From the NCBI GenBank assembly GCA_005888095.1, contig VBKF01000125.1, positions 1 through 64,000 of the forward strand: a stretch of DNA of 64,000 nucleotides, given 5' to 3'. Both the position numbers and the translations under genes were made by a program. The notes beneath the pieces are model-generated. The model ran no database searches. It was not told the origin of the DNA and saw only the letters and a list, made by a program, of their open reading frames with translations. Positions within the stretch are counted from its first letter, which is position 1; each line of letters begins with the position of its first letter. Shown here piece by piece: positions 37,362-53,230 of this stretch. The stretch comes from Deltaproteobacteria bacterium. GTDB lineage: Bacteria > Desulfobacterota > Binatia > DP-6.

Positions 37362-38477
37362 ATGCCCGCCCCGACATCAAATAGAAAGTCCTTGCCCCAC
37401 GGCCTCCCCTTCGCGCCCACGAAGGTCGGCGTGCTCATCGACATCGACATGGGCACCAAGGAGGACTTCCTGGCCACGCTGCGCTTCGGGTTCGACGAGG
37501 CCCACGCCGAGGGCGTGATCACCCGCCCGGTCGAGCTCGTCGTGAAGGAGGCGATCGGGCTCCCGCGCCTCGAGGCGAAGAACACGATCGACGGCTATCT
37601 CGCCCTTGCCGCCGAGGGCGTGCTCTGCGTCATCGGCCCGCTCATCACCGACAACTCGATCGCGCTCGCGCCGGTGATCGACCGCACCGGCGTGCCGGCC
37701 GTCACCTGGACGGGCACCGACCGCTACCATGGACAATACTGCTTCAACCTCGGCAACGGCGGCCTCGCCGAGGAGGCGGCGATGATGGCGGCGTGGATCC
37801 GCCGGCGCGGCTACACGACGGTCGGCATGATCCACGAGATCAGCCCGGGCGGCGTCGAGTACGCGTCGAACTTCCGCTACTACGCGGCCCGCGCCCGGCT
37901 CGACGTCCTGATCGAGGCCTACACGACGCAGGTTCCCGACGACCTCGAGGGCATCCTCCGGAAAATCCGCGACCAGCGGCCCGATTGCCTCGCCTATCTC
38001 GGCTACGGGTACCCGACGATCCTGATGGCCCCGATGTTCCGGAACCTCGGCTGGGACCCGCCCCGGATCATGACCAGCGCCTTCCAGTTCTGCTACGCCA
38101 AGCCCGAGTGGATGGCGGCGCTCGAGGGCTGGTACGGCATCGACCAGATGTGCGAGGAGAACCCGCGGCTCGGGCCCATGCTCGACCGCTTCGCGGACCA
38201 TCTCGGCAAGCGGCGCGACCACACCGTGACGGCGCTCAGCTACGACACGACGCGTTTGATCGCCGAAGGGCTAGCGCGCGCGCCGCTGCTGACCCCCGCC
38301 GGCGTGAAGGACGGCCTCGAGCGGGTGCGCATGCTGCCCGCCGTCAACGGGGGCCCGCGCACGCACATGAGCCTCGGGCCCTACGATCACAAGGCGTACA
38401 AGGGCGACTGGCTCGTGATCCGCCGCATCGAGGGCGGGAGGACGGTGTTCGTCGGGCTCCACGAGCCGGCGATCTGA
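37362..38477 (+). CDS. Leu/Ile/Val-type substrate-binding protein without signal peptide
   Basis: 371 residues. Type 1 periplasmic-binding fold: TKVGVLIDIDMGTKEDFLA, FDEAHAEGVI, GPLITDNSIALAPVIDR, VPAVTWTGTD, and QVPDDLEGILRKIRDQRPDCL. No signal peptide: the N-terminus MPAPTSNRKSLPHGL is polar. It would stay in the cytosol unless exported unusually. The stop and the ATG of the first ligase overlap by one base (TGATG). No permease or ATPase is nearby. It may be a ligand sensor for the ligases. Confidence 0.82.
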   Translation: MPAPTSNRKSLPHGLPFAPTKVGVLIDIDMGTKEDFLATLRFGFDEAHAEGVITRPVELVVKEAIGLPRLEAKNTIDGYLALAAEGVLCVIGPLITDNSIALAPVIDRTGVPAVTWTGTDRYHGQYCFNLGNGGLAEEAAMMAAWIRRRGYTTVGMIHEISPGGVEYASNFRYYAARARLDVLIEAYTTQVPDDLEGILRKIRDQRPDCLAYLGYGYPTILMAPMFRNLGWDPPRIMTSAFQFCYAKPEWMAALEGWYGIDQMCEENPRLGPMLDRFADHLGKRRDHTVTALSYDTTRLIAEGLARAPLLTPAGVKDGLERVRMLPAVNGGPRTHMSLGPYDHKAYKGDWLVIRRIEGGRTVFVGLHEPAI

Positions 38478-39994
38478 TGCTCCTGCCGACGTCTCCGGCG
38501 TTCCTCGCGCTGCAAGCCTCCCGTCGCGGCCGGGCGGGTGGCCTCTGCTTCGCCGGCCGGCGCATCGCCTACGGGGAGCTCTCCGCCGCCGTCGACGAGC
38601 TGGCGGCGTGGCTCGTGCGGCGGGGGCTCGGGACGGGACAGCCGATCGGCGTGCAGGCGGCGAACGAGCCCGCGGTGGTGGCGATGCTCTTCGCCGTCTG
38701 GGGGATCGGGGCCGTCGCCGTGCCGATCGCCGTCCGCTCGACGGCCGAGGAGACGGCACACCTGCTCGAGCATGCGCGGGCCCGGGCGCTCCTCTGCGAT
38801 CGTGGACGGGAGGCCGTCGCCCGCGACGCGGCCGCGGCGGCCGGCGTGCCGGCCTTCGTGACGGCGCCCGACCTGCCGCTCGCGCCGCGGCTCCTCCGTC
38901 GCGGCCGGCGGCCCGCGCCCCGCGCGCCCCGCCCGCCGGCGGCCGACGGGCTCGCGGTGATCGCCTACACCTCGGGGACGACGGGGGCCCCGAAGGGCGT
39001 CATGCTGACGCACGCGAACCTCCTCTGGGCGATGCTTGCCTGCGCCCAGGCGCGTGGCGACCGGGCCGAGACCGTCGGCGCCTGTCTGAGCCCGCTCAGC
39101 CACGTGCCGGTGCTGGTCTCGCACCTCCTCTGCCGCCTGCTCGCCGGGGCCACCGCCGTGCTGGTCGAGAAGTTCGACGTCGGCGCGACGCTCGATGCCG
39201 TCGAGCGCTTCGGGGTGACCGACCTCACGCTGATCGGCGGCATGGTCTTCGACATGCTCGCGCTCGGCCAGATTCCGGCGGCCGTGCGCCGGACGGTCGA
39301 GAAGGTGTCGGTGGGGGGTGCACCGACGCCGATGGAGGCGAAGCGCGCGCTCGCCCGGCTCTTCGAGGGCGCGGAGCTGATCGAGGCATACGGCCAGACC
39401 GAGTCGACCGACGGCGTCACGATGGCGCGCGGCACGAGCGTGTTCGACCGCGAGGGCACCGTCGGGCGGGTGAACCCGCACGTTGTCGTCGCGGTGCGTC
39501 GCCCCGACGGGGCGCTGGCGGCGCCGGGGGAGGAAGGGGAGATCGTGGTCGGCGGGCCGACCGTCATGGCCGGCTACCACCGCGACCGCGCCGCCACCGG
39601 CGACGCCGTCCGCGACGGCTGGCTGCACACCGGGGACCTCGGGCGGCAGGACGCGGACGGCTACCTCTTCCTCACCGGGCGCGTGAAGGACATCATCATC
39701 ACCGGCGGCGAGAACGTGTCGCCCGCCGAGGTGGAGGCCGTGCTGCGCGCCCATCCGGGCGTCGCCGACGTCGCCGTCATCGGCACGCCGCACCCCAAGT
39801 GGGGCGAGCAGGTGACGGCCGTGGTGGTCAGGCAGCCGGGCGCCCGGGTGGACGGCGCCGCGCTCGGCGCCTTCGCGGGGGCCCGGCTCGCCGGCTTCAA
39901 GCGGCCGCGACGGGTGGAGTTCGTCGACGCCCTGCCGCGCAACGCCGCCAACAAGGTGCAGGCGCATCTCCTGCGGGAGCGCTTCGGCGGCTGA
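38477..39994 (+). CDS. AMP-dependent acyl-CoA synthetase/ligase
   Basis: 505 residues. Adenylating enzyme: YTSGTTGAPKGVMLTH (P-loop A3), VSVGGAPTP, EAYGQTES (A5), WLHTGDLGRQD (A7), GRVKDIIITGGENVSPAEVE (A8) and the catalytic Lys in RNAANKVQ (A10). Activates a carboxylic acid to its CoA thioester. Tightly coupled on both sides (TGATG). Confidence 0.9.
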   Translation: MLLPTSPAFLALQASRRGRAGGLCFAGRRIAYGELSAAVDELAAWLVRRGLGTGQPIGVQAANEPAVVAMLFAVWGIGAVAVPIAVRSTAEETAHLLEHARARALLCDRGREAVARDAAAAAGVPAFVTAPDLPLAPRLLRRGRRPAPRAPRPPAADGLAVIAYTSGTTGAPKGVMLTHANLLWAMLACAQARGDRAETVGACLSPLSHVPVLVSHLLCRLLAGATAVLVEKFDVGATLDAVERFGVTDLTLIGGMVFDMLALGQIPAAVRRTVEKVSVGGAPTPMEAKRALARLFEGAELIEAYGQTESTDGVTMARGTSVFDREGTVGRVNPHVVVAVRRPDGALAAPGEEGEIVVGGPTVMAGYHRDRAATGDAVRDGWLHTGDLGRQDADGYLFLTGRVKDIIITGGENVSPAEVEAVLRAHPGVADVAVIGTPHPKWGEQVTAVVVRQPGARVDGAALGAFAGARLAGFKRPRRVEFVDALPRNAANKVQAHLLRERFGG

Positions 39995-41580
39995 TGGAGA
40001 CGCTCGGCGCCTTCCTCGACGCCGCCGTCGCGCGCGCGCCCGCGCGCGAGGCGCTGGCCGCCGCGCCGCGGGCGGAGGTGACGGCGCGGCTCGGCTGGGC
40101 CGAGCTGCGAGCGGCCAGCCGCGAGGCGGCGAAGAAGCTGCTGGCCGCCGGCGCCGGCAAGGGGAGCCGCGTCGGTCTCCTCTGCACCAACCGCCTCGAA
40201 TGGCTGCCGATCGCCTTCGGCGCCCTCCGGCTGGGGGCCGTCCTGGTCCCGCTCTCCACGCTCTGGAAGCGAGACGAGCTGGCCCACGCGCTCGGGCACG
40301 CCGACGTGCAGCTCCTCGTCATGCTCGACCGGTTCCTGCGCCACGACTACCTCGCGACGCTCCGCGACATCGTCCCGGAGCTGGCCGGGGCGGCGCCCGG
40401 CGCGCTGCGCTCGCCACGCCTGCCCGCGCTCCGCCGCGTGGTGCTGCTCGACGGGGAGGCCCCGGGATGCGCGCGCTGGGGCGAGCTGCCCGCGGCGATC
40501 GACGACCCGTTCCTCGACGCCGTCGAGCGCGCCGTGTCACCCGTCGACTGGGCGACCGTCTTCTTCACGTCGGGCACGACGGCCGAGCCGAAGGCCGTGG
40601 TGCACTCTCACGGCGCGCTCGCGACCGCGGCGCGGGGCATCGCCGAGCGGCTCGGCATCGGGCCCGACGACGCCTGGTGGGGTCATCTCCCCCTCTTCTG
40701 GAGCGGGGGCTTCGTGCTCGGCGCGCTGGCGACCATCGCGGGCGGCGGGCGCGTCGTCCTCCAGGAGGTCGTCGATGCCGCGAGCGCGCTCGAGCTGCTC
40801 GAGCGGGAAGCGTGCACCATCATGGCCGGCTGGCATCAGGCCGCACCCCTGCTCGAGCATCCGGAGTTCGCGGGGCGCCGGCTCCGGCTCCGCAAGGGAA
40901 CGCGCGCGGACCCCGAGCTGACGGCCCGGTTGCTCGGGTCGGACCACCACGCCGTCGGATGCTATGGCATGAGCGAGACTGCCACCTTCGTCAGCGCCGC
41001 GCGCTGGGACGACCCCGAGCCGATCCGCCTCGGCACCTTCGGCCGGCCGCTCGAGGGCATGGAGATCCGCATCGAGCCCGTCGCGGCGGGCGAGGCGGGC
41101 GAGATCCTGGTGCGCGGCCCCACCCTCATGGAGGGCTACTACGGCGTTCCGCGCGCGACGACGTTCGACGCCGAAGGCTTCTTCCGGACGGGCGACCTGG
41201 GCTTCGTCGACCCGGCGGGGTTCCTGCACTTCACGGGGCGATTGAAGGACGTCATCAAGACCGCGGGGGTCAACGTGGCGGCGAGCGAGGTCGAGGCCGT
41301 GCTGCGGCGCCATCCGGCCGTGCAGGCCGCGCACGTCGTCGGGGTGCGGCATCCGACGCGGGGCGAGAACGTCGCGGCATTCGTGGTCTTCAAGGCTCGA
41401 GGCGGGGCGACGCCCGAGGAGCTCCAGGGTTTCTGCGGGGAATCCCTGGCCAGCTACAAGGTTCCCCGGCACGTCTTCGTGGTCGCGGAGGGCGACCTGC
41501 CGCGCACGGCGAGCGGCAAGGTGGAGAAGGCGGCGCTGCGCCGGCTGGCGGAGACCCGTGCGGCCGGAACCCCATTTTAA
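39994..41580 (+). CDS. Second AMP-dependent acyl-CoA synthetase/ligase
   Basis: 528 residues. FFTSGTTAEPKAVVHSH, VGCYGMSETATF, FFRTGDLGFVD, GRLKDVIKTAGVNVAASEVE and RTASGKVEKAAL mark an intact ligase. It shares the operon and the one-base overlap with the first, but the two are not close copies. Ends at a TAA in an AT-rich patch (CCATTTTAAGTCC). Confidence 0.9.
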   Translation: METLGAFLDAAVARAPAREALAAAPRAEVTARLGWAELRAASREAAKKLLAAGAGKGSRVGLLCTNRLEWLPIAFGALRLGAVLVPLSTLWKRDELAHALGHADVQLLVMLDRFLRHDYLATLRDIVPELAGAAPGALRSPRLPALRRVVLLDGEAPGCARWGELPAAIDDPFLDAVERAVSPVDWATVFFTSGTTAEPKAVVHSHGALATAARGIAERLGIGPDDAWWGHLPLFWSGGFVLGALATIAGGGRVVLQEVVDAASALELLEREACTIMAGWHQAAPLLEHPEFAGRRLRLRKGTRADPELTARLLGSDHHAVGCYGMSETATFVSAARWDDPEPIRLGTFGRPLEGMEIRIEPVAAGEAGEILVRGPTLMEGYYGVPRATTFDAEGFFRTGDLGFVDPAGFLHFTGRLKDVIKTAGVNVAASEVEAVLRRHPAVQAAHVVGVRHPTRGENVAAFVVFKARGGATPEELQGFCGESLASYKVPRHVFVVAEGDLPRTASGKVEKAALRRLAETRAAGTPF

Positions 41581-41720: not shown

Positions 41721-44045
41721 ATGAAGCGCTTGCTCGCGATCGCGCTCGGGGCCGTGTGTCTGATCGCCGTCGTCGCCCGCACGCAAACCCCCGGGCCGGG
41801 GCAGCCGTTCGGCGGCGACGACCCGGGATGCGTTCCCGACAACGCCGCCCATCTCCGCTGCGCCAACACCATCGCGCGCGCCTTCGGCAGCCTCGTCTCC
41901 GCCGTCATCCGCTGCCACCGCATGCAGGCGAACGCCCGGCTGAATCACCGGGCCTTCGACGAGGAGTCGTGCGAGCAGGCGACGCCTTCGTCGGGCGGCC
42001 GTTCGGCCGGGGAGCGGTTCAACGCAAAGCTGAGCCGTATCGCTCCGGTGTGCACCCCGACGCAGCTCGCGGCCGCGGCCTCGCTGCGCGACACGCTGCT
42101 CGCGTCCAGCACCAATCCCGACTCGCTCGACCACCTCGACGGCGACGTCTACTGCGACTCCACCTCCGGGGCGGTGATCGACGACTCGACCGGCGGTGCG
42201 ATGGTGGACGACGCCGGCTTCGTGCCCCTCAATGCGGACATGGCGCGGTGCGAGAACACGGTGGGCACGAACCTCGCCAGGCTGGTCCTGCGGGTGATCC
42301 GCTGTCACATGACGCTCGCACGGAACAACTTCAACGGCCGGCTGGTCGACGACGAAAGCTGTGAGACGACGGCAGTGGGCAGCTACAACAGCTCCGCCGA
42401 CCGGCTGAGCGCCCGAGGCATCTGCCCGCCGTGCCAGAGCAACGCGAACCAGAAGGCCCTCGGCACCGCCACCGTGGCCCGTTTCGAGACCGCGAACGGG
42501 TCCATGTATCCGTGCGGCGCCGGGACAACGACCACGACCACCGTCGCGACCACGACCACCACGGTGGCGACGACCACCACGACGGTGGTCACGACGACGA
42601 CCTCCACCACCACCACGATCCCGGTGCCGACCACGACGACCACCACAACGACCACGACGACGCTCGCCCCGTGCACCGGTCCGTGCACCTGCACGGGCGG
42701 CACTCCCACCAAGATGTCCTCCACCACCGGGGTCGGCTCGGGCAGCTGCGGGCACCTCGCCTCGGACACGAACCCGAACTTCTTCTCCCTCGCGTGCGGC
42801 GGGCTCTACGTCGGCGGCGCCGGCGTCGGCGTCCCGCTGCCGTTCACGGTCCCCGACAATGGCACCTCGACCTCCCACGTCTCCTCGTGCGCCGGCACCT
42901 GCCTCACGTTTACCGCTGCGGACGCGGCCGAGGCCGGCGGCAACCGCTGCGCGGGCGGCTCGAACCACAATGGCAGCTGCACGACGAACGCCGACTGCCC
43001 GGGCGGCAAGTGCAACTTCCTGAAGTGCACGAAGGCGGGCTGCCTCTTCGGTCCGCCGCTGCCGCTTCCGAACGGCTCGCACCTCTCGGCTGCGACCAGC
43101 ACCTGTGTCATCAACACCGTCTCCGCCGACGGCTCGGGGACCGGCGACTGCAGCACCGGGGTGATCACGAACTTCAACCTGCCGCTCAGCTCGAATATCT
43201 TCCTGGCGGGCGACCTCATGTCGATGCGGTGCTCGGGCGGGTCGACGCCGGGAGCCGGCTGTGCCGCCGGCGGCGGGTGCGGCACCGTCACGCCGGGCTC
43301 GTGCCCGGGTGGAACCTGCGTCAACGACACGGGGCGGTGCACGGACACCGGCGCGGCATGCTGCTCCGACGCCGACTGCAGCGTGTCGGCGACGTGCGAG
43401 ACCGGCGCCTGCTCGGGCGGGACCAATAACGGCAAGGGCTGCATCACCAGCGCCGACTGCCCGGGCGGCGGGAAGTGCAAGACCTTCATACAGCCCTGCC
43501 CGATCTGCGAGCCGACTACCAACAAGTGCAACGGTGGCCCGAACGACGGCCTCGCCTGTACGCCTGTTTCCAGCCCGAGCAACAACGACTTCCCGACCAG
43601 CCACGAGTGTCCGCCGAACACCTCGCTCAGCATCGGCTCCCTGCCGATCGCCTTCGTGCTCAACACCGGCACGGTGACGAAGACGGCAGTCAACCTGACG
43701 GATCAGGCGAACGTCTTCTGCGGCTTCTGCAAGAATAAGACGACGAATGCCTTCCGGAACCCGGCCGTGGCATGTAATACGAACGCGGACTGCACGGCGT
43801 TCACAGGCTTCACGAGCTGTGGCCAGCGGACATCGGGTGCCTTCACCGCGGACGATGTCGCCCGCACCATCGTCGCGACGGGCGTCGCGGTGGGGCCCAT
43901 CGTCACCGGCGGCCCGGCCCAGCCGCAGACCCTGGTCAGCATCTTCTGCATCCCGCCGACCTTCAGCGCGGCGGTCGACGCGGCGGCCGACCTGCCCGGT
44001 CCGGGCATGACAGCCCTCCAGGGCACCACGGTAATGAGTCCGTGA
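41721..44045 (+). CDS. Large secreted protein with duplicated Cys domain and Thr-rich linker
   Basis: 774 residues, GGAAGGGAG upstream of the ATG. Signal peptide about residues 1-21. Two similar helical units (about 47-85 and 176-215) share the pattern C-x-N-T ... VIRCH ... D-x-ESCE, an internal duplication. Residues about 268-316 are a run of Thr with few Val, Ser and Pro: a linker, coded by an ACG/ACC repeat. The C-terminal half has many C-x5-DC units (CTTNADCPGGKC, CITSADCPGGGKC, CNTNADC). Probably cell-surface or extracellular; no enzyme motif was seen. Confidence 0.78.
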   Translation: MKRLLAIALGAVCLIAVVARTQTPGPGQPFGGDDPGCVPDNAAHLRCANTIARAFGSLVSAVIRCHRMQANARLNHRAFDEESCEQATPSSGGRSAGERFNAKLSRIAPVCTPTQLAAAASLRDTLLASSTNPDSLDHLDGDVYCDSTSGAVIDDSTGGAMVDDAGFVPLNADMARCENTVGTNLARLVLRVIRCHMTLARNNFNGRLVDDESCETTAVGSYNSSADRLSARGICPPCQSNANQKALGTATVARFETANGSMYPCGAGTTTTTTVATTTTTVATTTTTVVTTTTSTTTTIPVPTTTTTTTTTTTLAPCTGPCTCTGGTPTKMSSTTGVGSGSCGHLASDTNPNFFSLACGGLYVGGAGVGVPLPFTVPDNGTSTSHVSSCAGTCLTFTAADAAEAGGNRCAGGSNHNGSCTTNADCPGGKCNFLKCTKAGCLFGPPLPLPNGSHLSAATSTCVINTVSADGSGTGDCSTGVITNFNLPLSSNIFLAGDLMSMRCSGGSTPGAGCAAGGGCGTVTPGSCPGGTCVNDTGRCTDTGAACCSDADCSVSATCETGACSGGTNNGKGCITSADCPGGGKCKTFIQPCPICEPTTNKCNGGPNDGLACTPVSSPSNNDFPTSHECPPNTSLSIGSLPIAFVLNTGTVTKTAVNLTDQANVFCGFCKNKTTNAFRNPAVACNTNADCTAFTGFTSCGQRTSGAFTADDVARTIVATGVAVGPIVTGGPAQPQTLVSIFCIPPTFSAAVDAAADLPGPGMTALQGTTVMSP

Positions 44046-44070: not shown

Positions 44071-44703
44071 TCACCCGGGCGCGGGCGCCAGCGCGCGGAC
44101 GACCGCCTCGGCGGTCGTCACCGTGGCGAGCAGCGGCATGATGTTCTCGATCGAGAACCGGTGCCACTCGTCGGGGTAGCTCGCGCAGCAGTCCTCGATC
44201 ACGACCACGTCGAACCCCCGGTTGACCGAGGCGCGCACGATGCCCTCGACGGCGAGGTTGGTCGACACGCCGCTCATCAGCATCGTCGTCCGCCCGAGCA
44301 TGCGGAGCACGGGGTAGAGCTGCGTCCCGTACGAGCCGTCGACGCCGACGGTGCGCTCGAGGACGAAGTCCTCCGGCTGCGGTGCGAGCGCCGGGTGCGT
44401 CTCCACCCCCCAGGTGCCCTCGACGAGCATCGGCTGGCGCTGCGAGCGGCGGTGGATGAGCGTGTTGGGGCGCGGGAAGCCGGGCTTGCCGCAGAAGTTG
44501 ACGTAGAGGATCGGGACGCCACGTGCGCGCGCCGCGGCGATGACCGTCTGGAGCTTCGGGATGACGCCCCGCTTCTCGACCTGGGCCGCCAGCACGCCGC
44601 CGATGCCCCGCTTGCCGATGTTCGACTCGTGCACGATGTCGTTCTGCATCTCGACGATGCAGAGCGCCGCGCGGCCGGCGTCGAGGAGGAGGTCGGCCGT
44701 CAC
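44071..44703 (-). CDS. Isochorismatase-like hydrolase lacking the nucleophile Cys
   Basis: 210 residues, GTG start in GTGA overlap with the DUF35 gene. Isochorismatase fold: IVEMQNDIV with the catalytic Asp, SGVSTNLAVEG at the position where related cysteine hydrolases have Cys (T-N-x-C-V-E). Here that residue is Ala, and the Lys of the triad also seems to be Arg (LERTVGVDG). Ends with EDCCASYPDEWHRF. Last gene of a five-gene operon. Catalysis, if any, must differ from nicotinamidase-type hydrolysis. Confidence 0.8.
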   Translation of the reverse strand: MTADLLLDAGRAALCIVEMQNDIVHESNIGKRGIGGVLAAQVEKRGVIPKLQTVIAAARARGVPILYVNFCGKPGFPRPNTLIHRRSQRQPMLVEGTWGVETHPALAPQPEDFVLERTVGVDGSYGTQLYPVLRMLGRTTMLMSGVSTNLAVEGIVRASVNRGFDVVVIEDCCASYPDEWHRFSIENIMPLLATVTTAEAVVRALAPAPG

Positions 44704-45116
44704 CGGTCGGGCTCCCACACGGGCAGCGTCACGCGCTCCGTCAGCCGCTCGAAGACGGCGCGCACCCGCATGCCGAAGGCCATCTCCTCGGGACGGCAGT
44801 GGACCATGTAGCCGACGAGCCGCGGCCCCTCGTCGACCTCGACCAGCACCAGCACGAGCGGGAGGAGATGGCGGAAGGCGGGCAGGAAGGGCTCGTGGGC
44901 GACCACGTACGAGTAGACGCGGCCGCGACCGCTCGCGGCGAACCACTCGAGGCGCCCGCCCCCCTTCCAGTACATCGGCTTCGGCGGCCAGTGCGGGCGA
45001 CCCGTCGCGCGCTCGCGCTGGAGCATGAGCCGCCCTTCGCGCGCGCCCTCCCAGAAGGGACGCATGACCGGGTCGTCGACGTCGGGCAGCGGGTAGTCGG
45101 GATGGAGGTTCATCAT
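44700..45116 (-). CDS. DUF35 (ChsH2-type) OB-fold protein without zinc cysteines
   Basis: 138 residues. The layout is DUF35: N-terminal part LPDVDDPVMRPFWEGAREG, OB-fold GRVYSYVVAHEPFLPAF, RLVGYMVHCRPEEM, MRVRAVFERL. Usually the rubredoxin-like zinc ribbon reads CxxCG ... CPxCG. Here these are ERATGR and YWKGGG, so all four zinc ligands are lost. ATGA overlap with the thiolase gene. DUF35 proteins bind and stabilise Ltp2-type aldolases or thiolases. ATG codons 45116 and 45113 are both possible. Confidence 0.8.
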   Translation of the reverse strand: MMNLHPDYPLPDVDDPVMRPFWEGAREGRLMLQRERATGRPHWPPKPMYWKGGGRLEWFAASGRGRVYSYVVAHEPFLPAFRHLLPLVLVLVEVDEGPRLVGYMVHCRPEEMAFGMRVRAVFERLTERVTLPVWEPDR

Positions 45117-46297
45117 GCTGCGCGTAGTACCGCCGCGCTGGTAGCCACGCCGGACGCGCCGGTCACGAGCGTCGCCTTGCAGCCCGGGACCTGGTTGACC
45201 GACGTGCCGCGGATCTGCCGCACGCCCTCCAGGACGAGGTTGAAGCCGTGCACGTACGCCTCCGCGAGCCCGCCGCCCGAGGTGAGCACGGGCAGCTCGC
45301 CGCCGAGCTCGATACGGCCGCCCTCGGTGAACGGCCCGCCCTCGCCGCGCCGGCAGAAGCCGTAGTCCTCGAGTCCGGTGATCACGAGGGGCGTGAAGGC
45401 GTCGTAGATCTGCGCGCAGTCCATGTCCCGTGGCTGGAGCGCGGAGCGCTGCCAGAGGAGCTTCGCGCAGAAGACCGACGTCGTCTCCATGGTGGGCGTA
45501 TTGTTGTAGTTGGCGAGGTGCACCGGGTTCGGCCCCGAGGCCTGCGCGACCGAGTGGACGAGGACGGGCGGGTGGCGGAGGTCGCGCGCGCGCTCGACCG
45601 AGGTCACCACGCAGGCGAGCGCGCCGTCGGTCTCGAGGCAGCAGTCATGGAGCGTGAGCGGCCAGCCGATCGGGCGGCCGGCGAGGTAGGTCTCCATGTC
45701 GAGCGGCCGGTCGCGCATCATGGCGTAGGGGTTGCGTTGCGCGTGGCGGCGCGCCGCGATGGCGACGTTGCCGAAGTGCTCGCGCCGGGTGCCGAACTCG
45801 TGCATGTGGCGGTGCGCCCACATGCCGATGACGTCGACGGGGCGGACGAGGCCCCACGGGACGTGCAGCGCCTTGTCGTCGCGGACGAGCCCGCGCTCCT
45901 GCGCCCACGGGCGCGACGCCTTCGCGCCCCGGTTGCGCGCGCGGTGGCAGACGACGGTGGTCGCGAGCCCCGCGGCGATCGCGGCCGCCGCATGCATCAG
46001 CGTCGCGCACGACGCCCCGCCGCCGTAGGAGATCTTGTCCCACCAGCGCAGGTTCTCGACCCCGAGCCGCCGGGCGATCGAGACCTCGTGCGTCGACTCC
46101 ATCTCGAACATCGACATGCCGTCGACCTGCTCGGCCTCGAGGCCGGCGTCGTCAAGGGCGAGCTGGATCGCCTCGACGGCCGTGTCGGAGATCGGACGGC
46201 CGATGTCCCTGGCGAAGGGCAGGTGGCCGATGCCGACGATCGCGACCCGATCCTGGATGCGGCGGAAGAGGTCGTCGCCCGGGTCCTGCACCGTCAC
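45113..46297 (-). CDS. Thiolase-fold protein, Ltp2/SCP2-type (possible acyl-CoA aldolase)
   Basis: 394 residues from GTG 46297 (GTG 46291 also possible). RVAIVGIGHLPFAR, GGGASCATLMHAAAA, CAQIYDAFTPLVI, and SGGGLAEAYVHGFNLVLEGVRQIRG place it with Ltp-like thiolases that work with DUF35 partners. Tyr in YDAFT and in EAYVHG match the catalytic tyrosines of the steroid aldolase Ltp2. The true reaction could be retro-aldol cleavage of a 3-hydroxyacyl-CoA-like ester rather than thiolysis. Confidence 0.82.
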   Translation of the reverse strand: MTVQDPGDDLFRRIQDRVAIVGIGHLPFARDIGRPISDTAVEAIQLALDDAGLEAEQVDGMSMFEMESTHEVSIARRLGVENLRWWDKISYGGGASCATLMHAAAAIAAGLATTVVCHRARNRGAKASRPWAQERGLVRDDKALHVPWGLVRPVDVIGMWAHRHMHEFGTRREHFGNVAIAARRHAQRNPYAMMRDRPLDMETYLAGRPIGWPLTLHDCCLETDGALACVVTSVERARDLRHPPVLVHSVAQASGPNPVHLANYNNTPTMETTSVFCAKLLWQRSALQPRDMDCAQIYDAFTPLVITGLEDYGFCRRGEGGPFTEGGRIELGGELPVLTSGGGLAEAYVHGFNLVLEGVRQIRGTSVNQVPGCKATLVTGASGVATSAAVLRAA

Positions 46298-46301
46298 CCG
46301 G

Positions 46302-47090
46302 TTACCACGAGATTTCTCGACCGCACAAATGCGCCCTGACCTGGCCCGCGAACTCGGCGATGGCGTCGAGAAGCGGCGGGCTCGCGAGCACGTCGTTGTG
46401 GTGCGCGCCCTTGATGCGCAGGAAGCGCTTCGGCTCGCGTGCCGCAGCGAACAGGCGCTCGCCCAGGGCGAAGGGCACGACCTCGTCGCGATCGCCGTGC
46501 GCGACGAAGACCGGGACGGAGAGCGTCCCGATGCGCGCGAGCGAGTCGAAGCGATCGCCGACCAGGGCCGCCAGCGGTCCATAGTGGCTGCGGGCGACGT
46601 CCCGCAGCGTCGTCCACGTGGAGACGACGGCGACACCGGCGCAGGGGCGCACGCTCGCCAGGTGGATCGAGACGGCGCCGCCGAGCGATTCGCCGAAGCA
46701 GACGATCGGCAGCGCCCCGGCGCTGTCGTAGGCCGCCTCGGCATCGAGATAGACGCCGGCCTCGCTCGGGCGGCCCTCACTGCGCCCGTAGCCGCGGTAG
46801 TCGTAGGCCAGCACGTCGATGCCGCGTGCCGCGAGCGCGAGCGCGACGTCGACGCGTCCGGCGATGTTCCCGGCGTTGCCATGCGACCAGACGAGCGTGG
46901 CCCGCGCCTCGCGTGCTGGGACGTACCAAGCATGTATACGGACGTGGTCGCGGGTGGTGATCCAGCGCTCCTCGACGCCCGGAGGCGGGTGCGGAATGGT
47001 GGTGTCGGGGAGGAAGATGAGCCGATCGAGCCACACCGAAGCGCACCCGGCCGCTGCGACGTATCCCAGGATCACAATTCGGCGGCCCAT
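46302..47090 (-). CDS. Lipid-anchored alpha/beta hydrolase (BEM46-like)
   Basis: 262 residues. N-terminal lipobox-like signal (VAAAGC at residue 16). Alpha/beta hydrolase: oxyanion region WSHGNAGNIAG, nucleophile elbow GESLGG, Asp in AHGDRDEVV and His in GAHHNDV. Resembles BEM46/ABHD13-type enzymes. Probably an esterase or thioesterase at the outer face of a membrane. Co-transcribed between the LLM and thiolase-like genes. Confidence 0.85.
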   Translation of the reverse strand: MGRRIVILGYVAAAGCASVWLDRLIFLPDTTIPHPPPGVEERWITTRDHVRIHAWYVPAREARATLVWSHGNAGNIAGRVDVALALAARGIDVLAYDYRGYGRSEGRPSEAGVYLDAEAAYDSAGALPIVCFGESLGGAVSIHLASVRPCAGVAVVSTWTTLRDVARSHYGPLAALVGDRFDSLARIGTLSVPVFVAHGDRDEVVPFALGERLFAAAREPKRFLRIKGAHHNDVLASPPLLDAIAEFAGQVRAHLCGREISW

Positions 47091-47110
47091 CGCAACCGCC
47101 GTCGCAAGCG

Positions 47111-48025
47111 TCAGTGCCCGACCGCAGCGACGACGTCGGCCATCGCACGCGACAGCTCGTCCGGAGTCTTCGCGTGCCGGAGCCCGACGACGAGGTAGTC
47201 GAGCCCGGCGTCGCGGTATGCGTCGAGGTCGCGGCGCACCTTGTCCGCGTCGCCGTAGAGCGGGCGCGAGCCATCCGGGCCGACCAGCACGCCTTTACGA
47301 AGGCTCACCGTCACCGCCTCCGGCCCGCGCCCATGGGCGACCACGCGCTGCCGCAGCCGCGCGACGAGCGGTGCCAGCTCCGCCGGCGCGAGGTCGATCG
47401 CGTGCCAGCCGTCGCCGGCGCGCGCGGCGCGCTCGATCGCGGCCGCCGAGTCGCCCGCGATCCAGAGCGGAGGATGCGGCTGCTGGACCGGCGGCGGGCC
47501 CGTCCGCACCGGCGGGAGGCGATAGCACGAGCCCACGAACTCGGCGTCGCCCCCGCGCCAGAGCGCCCGGCAGACCGCGAGGTATTCCTCGGTCCGCCGG
47601 CCGCGGCCCGCGAAGGGCACGTCGAGCGCCTCGAACTCCTCGCGCAGCCAGCCCGTGCCGACGGCGAGGACGACGCGCCCGCCCGAGAGGACGTCGAGCG
47701 TGGCGATCTGCTTCGCCGTGACCACGGGGTTGCGGTAGGGGAGGACGTACGCGCTGACTCCGAGCCTCACGCGGCTCGTCTGTCCGGCCAGGTAGGCGAG
47801 GGTAACCGTCGGTTCGAAGAAGCGCTCGATGACGGCCATGTCGCCCGGGCGCGCGTCGGGGCGCCGGTCGTAGGGATAGACCGAGCGGACGGCGCGCGGC
47901 GCGACCAGGTGGTCGCTCACCCAGACGGAATCGACGCCGAGCGCCTCGGCCTCACGTGCGAGGCGCACCAACACGTCGGGCGCGGCGAGCGGGCCGTAGT
48001 TGGGGAGGGCGATGCCGAACCGCAC
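47111..48025 (-). CDS. LLM-class F420-dependent oxidoreductase
   Basis: 304 residues, GTG start. VRFGIALPNYG, VDSVWVSDHLVAPR, VRLGVSAYVLPYRNPVVTAKQIATLD and AVGTGWLREEFEALDV are classic for the LLM group that uses F420 (TIGR03619-type). First gene of the five-gene minus-strand operon ending at 44071. Substrate unknown; distinct from the LLM at 2442. Confidence 0.9.
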   Translation of the reverse strand: MRFGIALPNYGPLAAPDVLVRLAREAEALGVDSVWVSDHLVAPRAVRSVYPYDRRPDARPGDMAVIERFFEPTVTLAYLAGQTSRVRLGVSAYVLPYRNPVVTAKQIATLDVLSGGRVVLAVGTGWLREEFEALDVPFAGRGRRTEEYLAVCRALWRGGDAEFVGSCYRLPPVRTGPPPVQQPHPPLWIAGDSAAAIERAARAGDGWHAIDLAPAELAPLVARLRQRVVAHGRGPEAVTVSLRKGVLVGPDGSRPLYGDADKVRRDLDAYRDAGLDYLVVGLRHAKTPDELSRAMADVVAAVGH

Positions 48026-48197: not shown

Positions 48198-48605
48198 TTA
48201 CCAGAGTACTCGCACCAGCCCCGAGTCGGAGATGTCGGCGTCACGCGTGATGAGCGGCAGGGACAGGCGTCGCGCCGCCGCGCACACGAGCGCATCGAAC
48301 GGGTCATCATTCGGGCGCGTGTCGTCCGCGAGGTAGACGTCCTCGGGGATGAGGTCGACTGCCTGATAGGCGGGGTTGCTGAAGAGATCGGCGAAGAACT
48401 CACGGAGGGATCGCCGGAGGTCGACGCGCCCCACGCGGGAAAGGAGGCTCGTCTCCCACATCACTGCCGTGGGGACGTAGATCAGGGCGGTGCGTGCCTC
48501 CGCGGCGGCGAACAGGCGAGCCGCGCGTCGGCCGAGCCGGCGGCCCCCTGCAGCGTGGAAGAGAAGGGGGTGCGTGTCGGTGACTGCCGCGCGGGCGTCA
48601 GCCAC
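48198..48605 (-). CDS. vapC: VapC-like PIN-domain toxin
   Basis: 135 residues from GTG 48605. AVTDTHPLLFHAAG carries the first PIN Asp; WETSLLSRVG, PFDALVCAAARRL and LITRDADISDSG carry the rest. The start overlaps the antitoxin end by 8 bases. Looks intact, unlike the copies at 36492 and 57662. Confidence 0.85.
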   Translation of the reverse strand: MADARAAVTDTHPLLFHAAGGRRLGRRAARLFAAAEARTALIYVPTAVMWETSLLSRVGRVDLRRSLREFFADLFSNPAYQAVDLIPEDVYLADDTRPNDDPFDALVCAAARRLSLPLITRDADISDSGLVRVLW

Positions 48606-48876
48606 GATGCCGCCCGGACTGCCGCACGCGCCGCCGTCGACCACTCGAAAACATCGTGCGGATTGTCCGGTCCGCACCAGCGAGGTCGGGGTCAGCCGTC
48701 GCGAGCGCGATGGTGCCCACCACCGAGCGGATCGAATCGGTATGAACGCGTCCGGCGGCGCGCGCGTCGGAGACCAGCCGATCGACGAGCTGACTCACGC
48801 TTCGACGTCCACCTGCCCGCGCTTGCCCCCGCAGCCAGAGAAGGTTTTCCTCCTCGAGCGTGATGGAGATAGCCAT
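48598..48876 (-). CDS. RHH-type antitoxin
   Basis: 92 residues from ATG 48876 (MAISITLEEENLLWLRGQAR). An ATG at 48885 is possible but lies within the operator-like repeats at 48882-48901, so I prefer the later start. SVSQLVDRLVSDARAAG matches the RHH fold. Partner of the VapC at 48198. Confidence 0.8.
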   Translation of the reverse strand: MAISITLEEENLLWLRGQARAGGRRSVSQLVDRLVSDARAAGRVHTDSIRSVVGTIALATADPDLAGADRTIRTMFSSGRRRRVRQSGRHRG

Positions 48877-48881
48877 CCTGC

Positions 48882-48901
48882 TCATACGATATTCATACGA
48901 T
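48882..48901. repeat. Direct repeat TCATACGAT x2 before the antitoxin
   Basis: Copies at 48882-48890 and 48893-48901, 11 bases apart, 5 bases upstream of the chosen start. The period is about one helix turn, as in RHH operators. Confidence 0.6.
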
Positions 48902-49026
48902 GGGGCAGCGGTTCGCGTCAAGCACGGCTCGTCGCGGCCAGACACCTGCGGCTTGCCCCCTGCGCGCCGAACTGGTTTGGCACAGCGCCGCCCGTTTTTT
49001 CCACGACCGGGGCCCGTTCCGTAAAC

Positions 49027-50648: not shown

Positions 50649-51971
50649 ATGAGCACGCGGCGGGCCCGACTTGACCGCGCCGACGGGGCCTTGTTACGCC
50701 CCGGCAGCGACATGGCGTGGCCGCCGACCCCGGAAGAGTTCGGGCGCTTGCGCGAGACCCTCGCATGGGTCGCCGCGCGGTCGTCTTACTACCGCCGTGT
50801 CTTCGACGCCGCCGGGGTGCGGCCCGACACGCTCGCGAGCTACGACGAGTTCCGCCGCCGGGTCCCGCTGACCCTCAAGACCAACCTGGTCGAGAACCAG
50901 CGGGCGCACCCGCCGTTCGGCGAGTTTCTCGCCGCGCCGCGGGAGCAGTTCGCCTCGCTCCACACCTCGCCCGGGCCGATCTACATCCCGCGCCTCGCCG
51001 AGGAGCGCGGCGGGACGCCGGTGCTCGTCGAGGCGGTCGCCGCCATGGGTGTGCGCCCCGGCGAGGTGGTGCACGTGACCCTGTCCTACCACATCATGCC
51101 GGGCGGACTCCGGCTCCATCGCGCCTTCGAGGAGTACGGCTGCCTGGTCATCAACGGCGGCACCGGGGCGAGCCGCCTCCAGGTGGAGGTGGCGCGCGCC
51201 TGGGGCGCGACGGTGTACGCCGGCACGCCGAGCTTCCTCGCCAACCTCGGCGACACGGCGCGCGAGATGGGCCTCGACCCCCGCCGCGACCTCCACTACC
51301 GGGTCGGCTTCTCGACCGCCGAGGCGCTCACGCCGGCGCTGCGCCGCGAGCTCGAGGCCACCTTCGGCATCGAGCTCTACGACCACTGCGGGGAAGCGCA
51401 GATCGGACCGCTCGCCGGAGAATGTCGCCTGCACGACGGCATGCACCTCCACGCCCGCGACCTCTTCTGCGAGTTCCTCGACGTCGAGAGCGGTGAGCCG
51501 GTCGAGCCGGGTGGGACGGGCGAGCTCGTCGCCACACAGCTCGGGCCGCGCGCGCTGCCGCTCGTGCGCTACGCCCCGCGCGACGTCTTCCACCTCCTGC
51601 CCGGCGCGTGCGCCTGCGGCAACCCGGCGCTGCGCCTGCGCTTCGTCGGCCAGGCGGGCGCCATCCGGAAGATCAAGGGTGTGCTCGTCCACCCGGCCCA
51701 GGTACACGCGGTGACGAGCGACTTTCCCGAGCTCGGCCGCTTCCAGATCGTCGTCGAGCGAGGGGCCCGGTACGACCGCGCCCGCCTGCGGGCGGGGACC
51801 GTGCGCGCGCCTGCCGAGCCCGAGGCGCTCGCGCGCGCGCTGGCCGAGCGGCTGAAGTCGACGGTCTTGATCCAGATGGACGTCGAGCTGGTGCCCGAGG
51901 CGGACATCCCGGAGGCGGCCGCGCCGCCCCGGTTCAGCGAGGCGATCGTCGATCGCAGGACGAAGGCGTGA
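50649..51971 (+). CDS. PaaK-like ligase with degenerate P-loop
   Basis: 440 residues. Phenylacetate-CoA-ligase layout: N-terminal WVAARSSYYRRVFDAAGVRP, YDHCGEAQIGPLAGEC, PGACACGNPALRL, and a C-terminal domain (GAIRKIKGVLVHPAQVHAV). At the place of the phosphate-binding TSGTTG loop there is HTSPGPIYIPR, so ATP binding may be altered. Next gene in GTGA overlap. Substrate unknown. Confidence 0.75.
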   Translation: MSTRRARLDRADGALLRPGSDMAWPPTPEEFGRLRETLAWVAARSSYYRRVFDAAGVRPDTLASYDEFRRRVPLTLKTNLVENQRAHPPFGEFLAAPREQFASLHTSPGPIYIPRLAEERGGTPVLVEAVAAMGVRPGEVVHVTLSYHIMPGGLRLHRAFEEYGCLVINGGTGASRLQVEVARAWGATVYAGTPSFLANLGDTAREMGLDPRRDLHYRVGFSTAEALTPALRRELEATFGIELYDHCGEAQIGPLAGECRLHDGMHLHARDLFCEFLDVESGEPVEPGGTGELVATQLGPRALPLVRYAPRDVFHLLPGACACGNPALRLRFVGQAGAIRKIKGVLVHPAQVHAVTSDFPELGRFQIVVERGARYDRARLRAGTVRAPAEPEALARALAERLKSTVLIQMDVELVPEADIPEAAAPPRFSEAIVDRRTKA

Positions 51972-53230
51972 ACGCGGACCGTCGCTACTACGACCCGGAC
52001 GTCCAGACGATGCCGCTCGAGCGCCTGCGGCGGCTGCAGGCCGAGCGGCTCGCCCGCCAGCTCGACCGCGTATGGGCCGTCCCGGTACCGTTCTTCCGCC
52101 GCAAGCTCGAGGCCGCCGGTCTCCGGCGCGCCGACCTCCGGGGCCTGGACGACCTCCGGCTCATCCCGACGACGGTGAAGGACGAGCTCCGCCGGAGCGA
52201 GGAGGAGCACCCGCCGTTCGGCGACTACCGCGGCGCGCCCATCGAGGCCTGCGTCCGGCTCGGGGCCTCCACCGGCACGAGCGGCCGGCCGACGCTCATC
52301 CTCTGGACCCGCAAGGACCTCGCGGTCGACCATGCCGCCTCCGCGCGCGGGCGGTGGCGCTGGGGGCTCAGGCCCGGCATGAGCCTCGCCAACGCCCACC
52401 CCTTCGGGATGAACGCGGGCGGCTGGCACTTCAGCCACGGCGTCGAGATGCTCGGCGTGCTGAACGTCCCCTCCGGCCCACCGCTCGGCGAGGCGCACGT
52501 CCGGGACGTCGTCGAGGTGTGGCGCCGGATCCGTCCCGACATGTACCGGCTCTTCGGCAACGTGGGGCGCACCTATGCGGAAGCCGCGCGCGCGATGGGC
52601 CTGGATCCCGAGCGTGACCTGAACCTGCGCCTCGCGGGTGACCATCCGGCCGAGCAGTACCTGATGGTGAGCTCGGGCCTCGAGGCGCTGCCCCTGCTCG
52701 GCAGCGCCTGCGAGGAACGCGACGGCGCGCACCTGGCCGAGGACCTGGCCATTGTCGAGGTGATCGACCGGCGGACGGGACGCCCGTGCGGCGACGGCGA
52801 GCGCGGCAACCTCGTGGTCACCGTCCTCGAAAAGGACAACTTCCTCCTCCGCTACGACCTCGAGGACCTGGTCCGCTGGAACACGAAGCCGTGCCCGTGC
52901 GGCGAGACGCACCGGCGCCTGTTCTACGAAGGCCGCGTGCGGGACATCGTCCGGGTCGGCGACCGCGAGCTGCTGCCCATTGACGTGGCGTTCGTGCTCT
53001 ACGAGTTCCCCGAGGTGTCGCGCCCGTCGGCGGAGTATCAGATCGTGCGGCGAGCCGACGTCCTACGTGTCCGCGTCGAGTACGACCCCGCCGCGGACGC
53101 GGGCGGGCTCGCGCGGCGCCTCGGCGAGCGCTTCCAGGAGCGGCTCGGAGTGACGGCCGACGTCGAGCTCGTCCCGCGCGGCGCCGTGCCGCGCTTCGCC
53201 TACAAGGCCGCGCGCGTCGTCGACGCCTGA
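51968..53230 (+). CDS. PaaK-like ligase with intact P-loop
   Basis: 420 residues from GTG in GTGA overlap. PVPFFRRKLEAAGLRRADL, GASTGTSGRPTLILWTRKDL (intact phosphate loop), GDGERGNLVVTVLEKDN, KPCPCGETHRRLF and a C-terminal lid (VGDRELLPIDVAFVLYEFPE). It probably activates a carboxylic acid to its CoA ester. With the preceding gene it may form a heteromer of one active and one altered subunit. Confidence 0.8.
   Translation: MNADRRYYDPDVQTMPLERLRRLQAERLARQLDRVWAVPVPFFRRKLEAAGLRRADLRGLDDLRLIPTTVKDELRRSEEEHPPFGDYRGAPIEACVRLGASTGTSGRPTLILWTRKDLAVDHAASARGRWRWGLRPGMSLANAHPFGMNAGGWHFSHGVEMLGVLNVPSGPPLGEAHVRDVVEVWRRIRPDMYRLFGNVGRTYAEAARAMGLDPERDLNLRLAGDHPAEQYLMVSSGLEALPLLGSACEERDGAHLAEDLAIVEVIDRRTGRPCGDGERGNLVVTVLEKDNFLLRYDLEDLVRWNTKPCPCGETHRRLFYEGRVRDIVRVGDRELLPIDVAFVLYEFPEVSRPSAEYQIVRRADVLRVRVEYDPAADAGGLARRLGERFQERLGVTADVELVPRGAVPRFAYKAARVVDA

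Follow-up and report, generated by a model that had tools for sequence, protein, structure and literature searches.

A conserved pair of Ltp2-like and zinc-free DUF35 genes in Binatia, related to a steroid side-chain aldolase

The window analysed here, 64,000 nucleotides of contig VBKF01000125.1 from a Deltaproteobacteria bacterium of the Binatia (assembly GCA_005888095.1), carries on its minus strand a gene for an Ltp2-like thiolase-fold protein followed by a gene for a DUF35 protein that has lost its zinc-binding cysteines. This pair is a conserved variant of a known steroid side-chain-cleaving enzyme and not a new kind of machine. Its two products probably act together as an acyl-coenzyme A (acyl-CoA) retro-aldolase, that is, a two-protein carbon-carbon lyase, built on a scaffold without zinc. 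Sequence comparison places the Ltp2-like protein not among the true steroid Ltp2s but in a sister subfamily of the steroid C3 side-chain aldolases, marked by the motif YDAF. The source genome (G000) comprises 5.46 Mb in 271 contigs. The two genes are:

45113..46297, minus strand: Ltp2-like thiolase-fold protein of the YDAF subfamily, 394 aa, GTG start (NF005892/PRK07855, 6ok1_A, AlphaFold2 (AF2) model)
44700..45116, minus strand: stand-alone, zinc-free DUF35 protein with an OB_ChsH2_C domain (PF01796, 70 bits) and a degenerate zf-ChsH2 domain (PF12172, 27.5 bits)

An alternative start of the DUF35 gene is possible at 45113.

Active Site and Fold of the Ltp2-like Protein

The Ltp2-like protein scores 461.8 bits against NF005892/PRK07855, for which the curated cutoff is 469, and its closest solved relative is chain A of PDB 6ok1 (306 bits), the Ltp2-ChsH2(DUF35) aldolase of Thermomonospora curvata. 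The AF2 model of the chain, with a predicted local distance difference test (pLDDT) value of 86.8, is predicted to have the same fold; its best PDB match is 6ok1_C, with 6ok1_A also matched (template modelling (TM) scores 0.87/0.90). In the T. curvata protein (TcLtp2), Tyr294 of the motif YDHF is the catalytic base, Tyr344 is the acid, and His296 lies in the oxyanion hole, where its replacement costs 14-fold in efficiency (PMC12329534). Alignment to 6ok1_A gives the following counterparts in the window:

45404..45406, minus strand: codon of Tyr298 (in YDAF), counterpart of TcLtp2 Tyr294
45398..45400, minus strand: codon of Ala300, counterpart of TcLtp2 His296
45254..45256, minus strand: codon of Tyr348 (in EAYVHG), counterpart of TcLtp2 Tyr344

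An earlier, sequence-only reading of this DNA had stated that both tyrosines of Ltp2 are kept. They are, as Tyr298 and Tyr348, and every clade member aligned over those sites retains both; what that reading overlooked was the change of His296 to alanine, as well as the link to an estrogen gene cluster described below.

In the mechanism that we propose, the Ltp2-like subunit would cleave a beta-hydroxyacyl-CoA by retro-aldol chemistry, with Tyr298 as the base that deprotonates the beta-hydroxyl and Tyr348 as the acid that protonates the enolate, and would yield a short acyl-CoA together with a ketone or an aldehyde. The DUF35 subunit would bind alongside as a structural, metal-free wall of the pocket, like ChsH2(DUF35) in 6ok1, and the side chains of conserved Trp, Pro and Arg residues would hold its ribbon in place of zinc. 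The substrate may carry a bulky or ring-bearing beta-hydroxyacyl group.

Loss of Zinc from the DUF35 Protein

The best solved relative of the DUF35 protein is chain B of 6ok1. That its OB-fold had been kept, as first proposed, agrees with the PF01796 match, which is above cutoff, and with the two-domain fold of the AF2 model (pLDDT 92.3), whose best PDB matches are 9myr_B and 6ok1_B/D (TM 0.81-0.87). The zinc ribbon was located by alignment of orthologues and by comparison with zinc-bearing paralogues:

44964..45020, minus strand: former zinc ribbon of the DUF35 protein, QRERATGRPHWPPKPMYWK

This stretch contains no cysteine, nor does it in any of the 20 orthologues, which bears out the proposed loss of all four zinc ligands. 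The orthologues (64-90% identity) have in common a QRxxxxGxxHWPPKPxYWK-like stretch, and the ribbon residues Q32, R33, W42, P43, K45, P46 and W49 are invariant among them. As a group they are sharply set off, at 184 bits or more against 107 or fewer for the next DUF35, and the Ltp2-like and DUF35 genes have dN/dS (nonsynonymous to synonymous substitution rate) values of 0.08-0.26. Because all orthologues lack the cysteines, the gap in score is clear and dN/dS is low, the zinc loss in Binatia is, as far as sequence can tell, old, fixed and under constraint. Among 17 DUF35 domains inspected in the source genome, 14 keep the C-x2-C...C-x2-C pattern, two have a cut or atypical ribbon, and that of the window has no cysteine. 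Thiolase-fold/DUF35 pairs are greatly expanded in this genome, with 19 DUF35 and 18 thiolase-like matches, and a further such pair lies just outside the window (C125:69872-71388).

Every DUF35 protein with a published structure so far binds zinc (PMC6996347; PMC12329534), and according to PMC12329534 the zinc finger gives the substrate pocket its shape. We surveyed the occurrence of zinc-free DUF35 proteins by a plasmid search and in 396 actinomycetotal genomes, from which 30 loci were read. Thirteen of these loci are zinc-free and of the Nocardia type, and the other 17 keep the four cysteines, so that a four-ligand zinc ribbon is not universal in the family; YDHF and GEAYIHG were found in all nine of the zinc-free loci checked for them. 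In Nocardia farcinica the genes are ordered acyl-CoA dehydrogenase, ChsH2 (MaoC + DUF35, QRLPDGTLRHPPIPAVWKDK), ChsH1 and Ltp2 with YDHF, which is an igr-type steroid operon, and the DUF35 of its ChsH2 is zinc-free. The ChsH2 of Mycobacterium tuberculosis likewise appears to be zinc-free. Further cases came from Tsukamurella, whose ChsH2 is also of the igr type, and from Novosphingobium EMRT-2, and after these searches we no longer regard zinc-free DUF35 as confined to Binatia.

The zinc-free actinomycetotal group (support 100/99) and the zinc-free Binatia group (100/100) do not join in the Ltp2 tree; each lies amid zinc-bearing relatives, and the two losses are therefore apparently separate. 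Zinc-free DUF35 proteins beside true Ltp2 genes argue that zinc is dispensable, and if there are at least two separate conserved losses beside Ltp2-type enzymes, the ribbon and not the metal would do the work, and such losses would offer a direct test of the role of zinc. The sequence-only reading had taken the zinc loss as a sign of a possibly new acyl-CoA cleavage module. Since igr-type ChsH2-Ltp2 operons of Actinomycetota show the same loss, it is no mark of new chemistry, and this argument for novelty falls. The remainder of the proposal stands in that the pair is conserved, that both its sequences and its predicted folds show homology to the Ltp2-ChsH2(DUF35) aldolase, and that at several loci it lies among acyl-CoA genes.

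Conservation and Genomic Context of the Pair

The pair was found in 20 of 148 Binatia genomes, each with one copy of the DUF35 orthologue. Both genes are on the same strand in all 20; the distance between them never exceeds about 2 kb, and in 15 genomes it is at most 171 bp. In the window they belong to a run of five minus-strand genes (48025-44071), in the order LLM (luciferase-like monooxygenase) protein, alpha/beta hydrolase, Ltp2-like protein, DUF35 and isochorismatase-like protein, with spacings of 20, 4, -4 and -4 bases. The three local neighbours are:

47111..48025, minus strand: F420-type LLM oxidoreductase, TIGR03619 (249.5 bits, above cutoff), GTG start
46302..47090, minus strand: alpha/beta hydrolase of the Hydrolase_4 type (PF12146), possible lipoprotein
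44071..44703, minus strand: isochorismatase-like protein (PF00857; alignment to 3kl2)

Coordinates and profile matches agree with the gene order and with the 4-base overlaps between the last three genes that had been reported, but the five genes do not form one conserved module. The LLM orthologue adjoins the pair within the genus only; elsewhere in the family a single genome (G005) has it at a distance of about 8 kb. The hydrolase was found only in the source genome and in G002, which is of the same genus. In G096 an isochorismatase-like orthologue with 78% identity lies about 3 kb from the pair; in G002 one is at a contig edge. In most other pair-bearing genomes none of the three genes is near the pair. 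Synteny across these genomes thus does not support a conserved five-gene operon; what is conserved as a unit is the Ltp2-DUF35 pair alone, and the other three genes are local additions.

The other neighbours of the pair differ by family. In G013 it closes a series of genes on one strand, in the order ligase, ligase, CoA-transferase, crotonase, ligase, Ltp2 and DUF35; two f15 genomes have a crotonase gene directly upstream; and in the window two ligases and two acyl-CoA dehydrogenases are in the vicinity. Several plasmid relatives are in operons with ligase, crotonase, acyl-CoA dehydrogenase and short-chain dehydrogenase genes. This acyl-CoA context is supportive, not statistical.

Subfamily Placement and the Estrogen Cluster

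The true Ltp2 clade, with TcLtp2 and proteins from Nocardia, Vibrio, Sphingopyxis and R. rhodochrous (support 100/100), excludes the window protein. The latter falls in the sister clade (99/94), to which a 'lipid-transfer protein' from Novosphingobium sp. ES2-1 and two zinc-bearing genes of Binatia also belong. Common to the sister clade are YDAF, EAYxHG and an RxRxR..RxWA loop, which the clade alignment places in the window as follows:

45902..45943, minus strand: subfamily-specific loop, RARNRGAKASRPWA

The exact loop pattern is present in 12 of 15 aligned clade members, the other three being near variants (RPWS or APWT for RPWA), and also in the two zinc-bearing sister genes and the ES2-1 protein. 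It is absent from the six other Ltp2-type plasmid proteins that were read, true Ltp2s included.

The neighbours of the ES2-1 lipid-transfer gene are the TetR gene IM701_20395, a P450 gene and a DUF35 gene. According to PMC8700777, IM701_20395 is the estrogen-cluster homologue of EdcR. The matching operon of N. tardaugens consists of a P450, a chsH2-like gene, a lipid-transfer protein and an enoyl-CoA hydratase, and an aldolase has been proposed among the estrogen-pathway enzymes of this species (PMC7793797). The placement of the subfamily offers a candidate for this proposed aldolase step in bacterial estrogen degradation. It is possible, although we suggest this only tentatively, that the YDAF proteins are a separate class of acyl-CoA retro-aldolases with a tyrosine pair and no oxyanion histidine; the class would include the aldolase proposed for aerobic estrogen degradation, and its Binatota members would have a zinc-free scaffold and perhaps a cyclic or terpenoid tertiary beta-hydroxyacyl-CoA as their substrate. 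In the DUF35 protein of the estrogen cluster (IM701_RS20385, on plasmid p3 of ES2-1) the ribbon is unusual in that it combines a C-x2-C with a C-x-C motif, where two C-x2-C motifs would be usual.

Comparison with Known Systems

The T. curvata complex has the same two folds as the window pair and both catalytic tyrosines, whereas the window DUF35 is stand-alone and zinc-free, the window Ltp2-like protein has alanine for His296 and a different beta4-alpha4 loop, and the subfamily differs. The igr ChsH2-ChsH1-Ltp2 system of the N. farcinica type resembles the pair in the missing zinc cysteines and in a similar PPxPxxW ribbon motif; its DUF35, however, is fused to MaoC, its partner is a YDHF Ltp2 and its loss is separate in the tree. 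The ES2-1 pair (IM701_RS20380/20385) has YDAF, EAYxHG, the RxRxR..RxWA loop, 40% identity and an adjacent DUF35, but this DUF35 keeps cysteines, the branch is long and the function is a proposed one only. The Sal-Shy(DUF35) bile-acid aldolase of Comamonas testosteroni (PDB 9myr), an aldolase with a variant Cys3His ribbon, gives the best PDB fold match for the DUF35 protein; Sal, however, uses a catalytic Tyr and Cys (YDCY) with Gln at the second Tyr, where the window protein has YDAF and Tyr348. Atf1-ChsH4 of Mycolicibacterium neoaurum, compared by description and not by sequence, is also an aldolase whose DUF35 (138 aa) stands alone and is encoded in the same operon, but acts in the C22 side-chain step (PMC10398937).

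Alternative Explanations

A retro-aldolase is the reading that we prefer, and several points weigh against it. The oxyanion-hole histidine is replaced by alanine, and YDAF is found in all clade members and in the sister genes. The operon in the window has no hydratase gene. The structure predictions cover the separate chains only, and the modelled ribbon of the DUF35 protein may in part be inherited, because the input alignment included zinc-bearing relatives. We know of no activity or binding for any member of the YDAF clade. The ES2-1 protein sits on a long branch, although the joining branch is well supported (99/94), and the estrogen-cluster link is therefore a lead with good, not final, support.

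Among the other readings, an orthologue of the igr-operon Ltp2, acting as a true steroid C3 side-chain aldolase in a host that degrades sterols, is unlikely. The score just below the NF005892 cutoff (461.8 vs 469) and 44% identity to Ltp2 of the Nocardia igr-type operon would fit, as would the ligases at 38477-41580, which are weakly similar to steroid-24-oyl-CoA synthetase among many ligase families; yet the protein falls outside the Ltp2 clade, His296 is alanine, the RxRxR loop differs and the operon has no ChsH1 or ChsH2-MaoC gene. A search of the source genome for BphC/HsaC-type markers gave no TIGR03213 extradiol dioxygenase match above cutoff, which is weak evidence since its sensitivity for HsaC is uncertain. 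An ordinary SCP2-type thiolase, cleaving 3-ketoacyl-CoA with CoA, would share the thiolase fold and the Thiolase_C_1 domain, but we regard it as very improbable: both catalytic cysteine positions are lost, the active Cys of SCP2 paralogues (NYCATG) aligning with glycine and HDCF having become YDAF, and the nearest solved relative is an aldolase.

DUF35-thiolase complexes that work in the forward direction or as acyl transferases, such as PhlABC, MucABC and the archaeal thiolase/hydroxymethylglutaryl-CoA (HMG-CoA) synthase complex, have the same fold. They rely on a Cys nucleophile that is absent here, and no third subunit is conserved beside the pair, which makes an activity of this kind quite unlikely. 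There is also a small chance that the five genes are one pathway, in which the LLM oxidoreductase, the hydrolase and the isochorismatase-like protein act on the substrate of the pair. The tight spacing in the window, the isochorismatase orthologues near the pair in G096 and at a contig edge in G002, and the LLM orthologue within about 8 kb in G005 speak for it; the restriction of the hydrolase to one genus and the position of all three genes away from the pair in most other genomes speak against it.

Other Genes in the Window

The isochorismatase-like protein has Ala (STNLAVEG in the alignment to 3kl2) where RutB-type relatives have the catalytic Cys, and Glu replaces the usual first Asp; since the G096 orthologue is identical in these features, the protein is probably not a cysteine hydrolase. 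The alpha/beta hydrolase has an N-terminal AAGC that is lipobox-like, as judged by eye only. Tandem CapK/phenylacetate-CoA-ligase-like genes with a 4-base overlap lie at 50712-53230, and G002 and G004 have conserved them next to the pair, on the opposite strand. A Peripla_BP_6 domain gene (37392-38477) overlaps an acyl-CoA ligase gene, and the trio that it forms with two ligases recurs in G004. Small overlapping genes at 48198-48945 resemble a PIN-domain toxin and its antitoxin, and the toxin-like gene also adjoins the LLM gene in G002. A secreted-looking, Cys-rich protein is encoded at 41721-44045; it has a long Thr-rich stretch (TTTTTVATTTTT) and repeated Gly/Cys-rich motifs.

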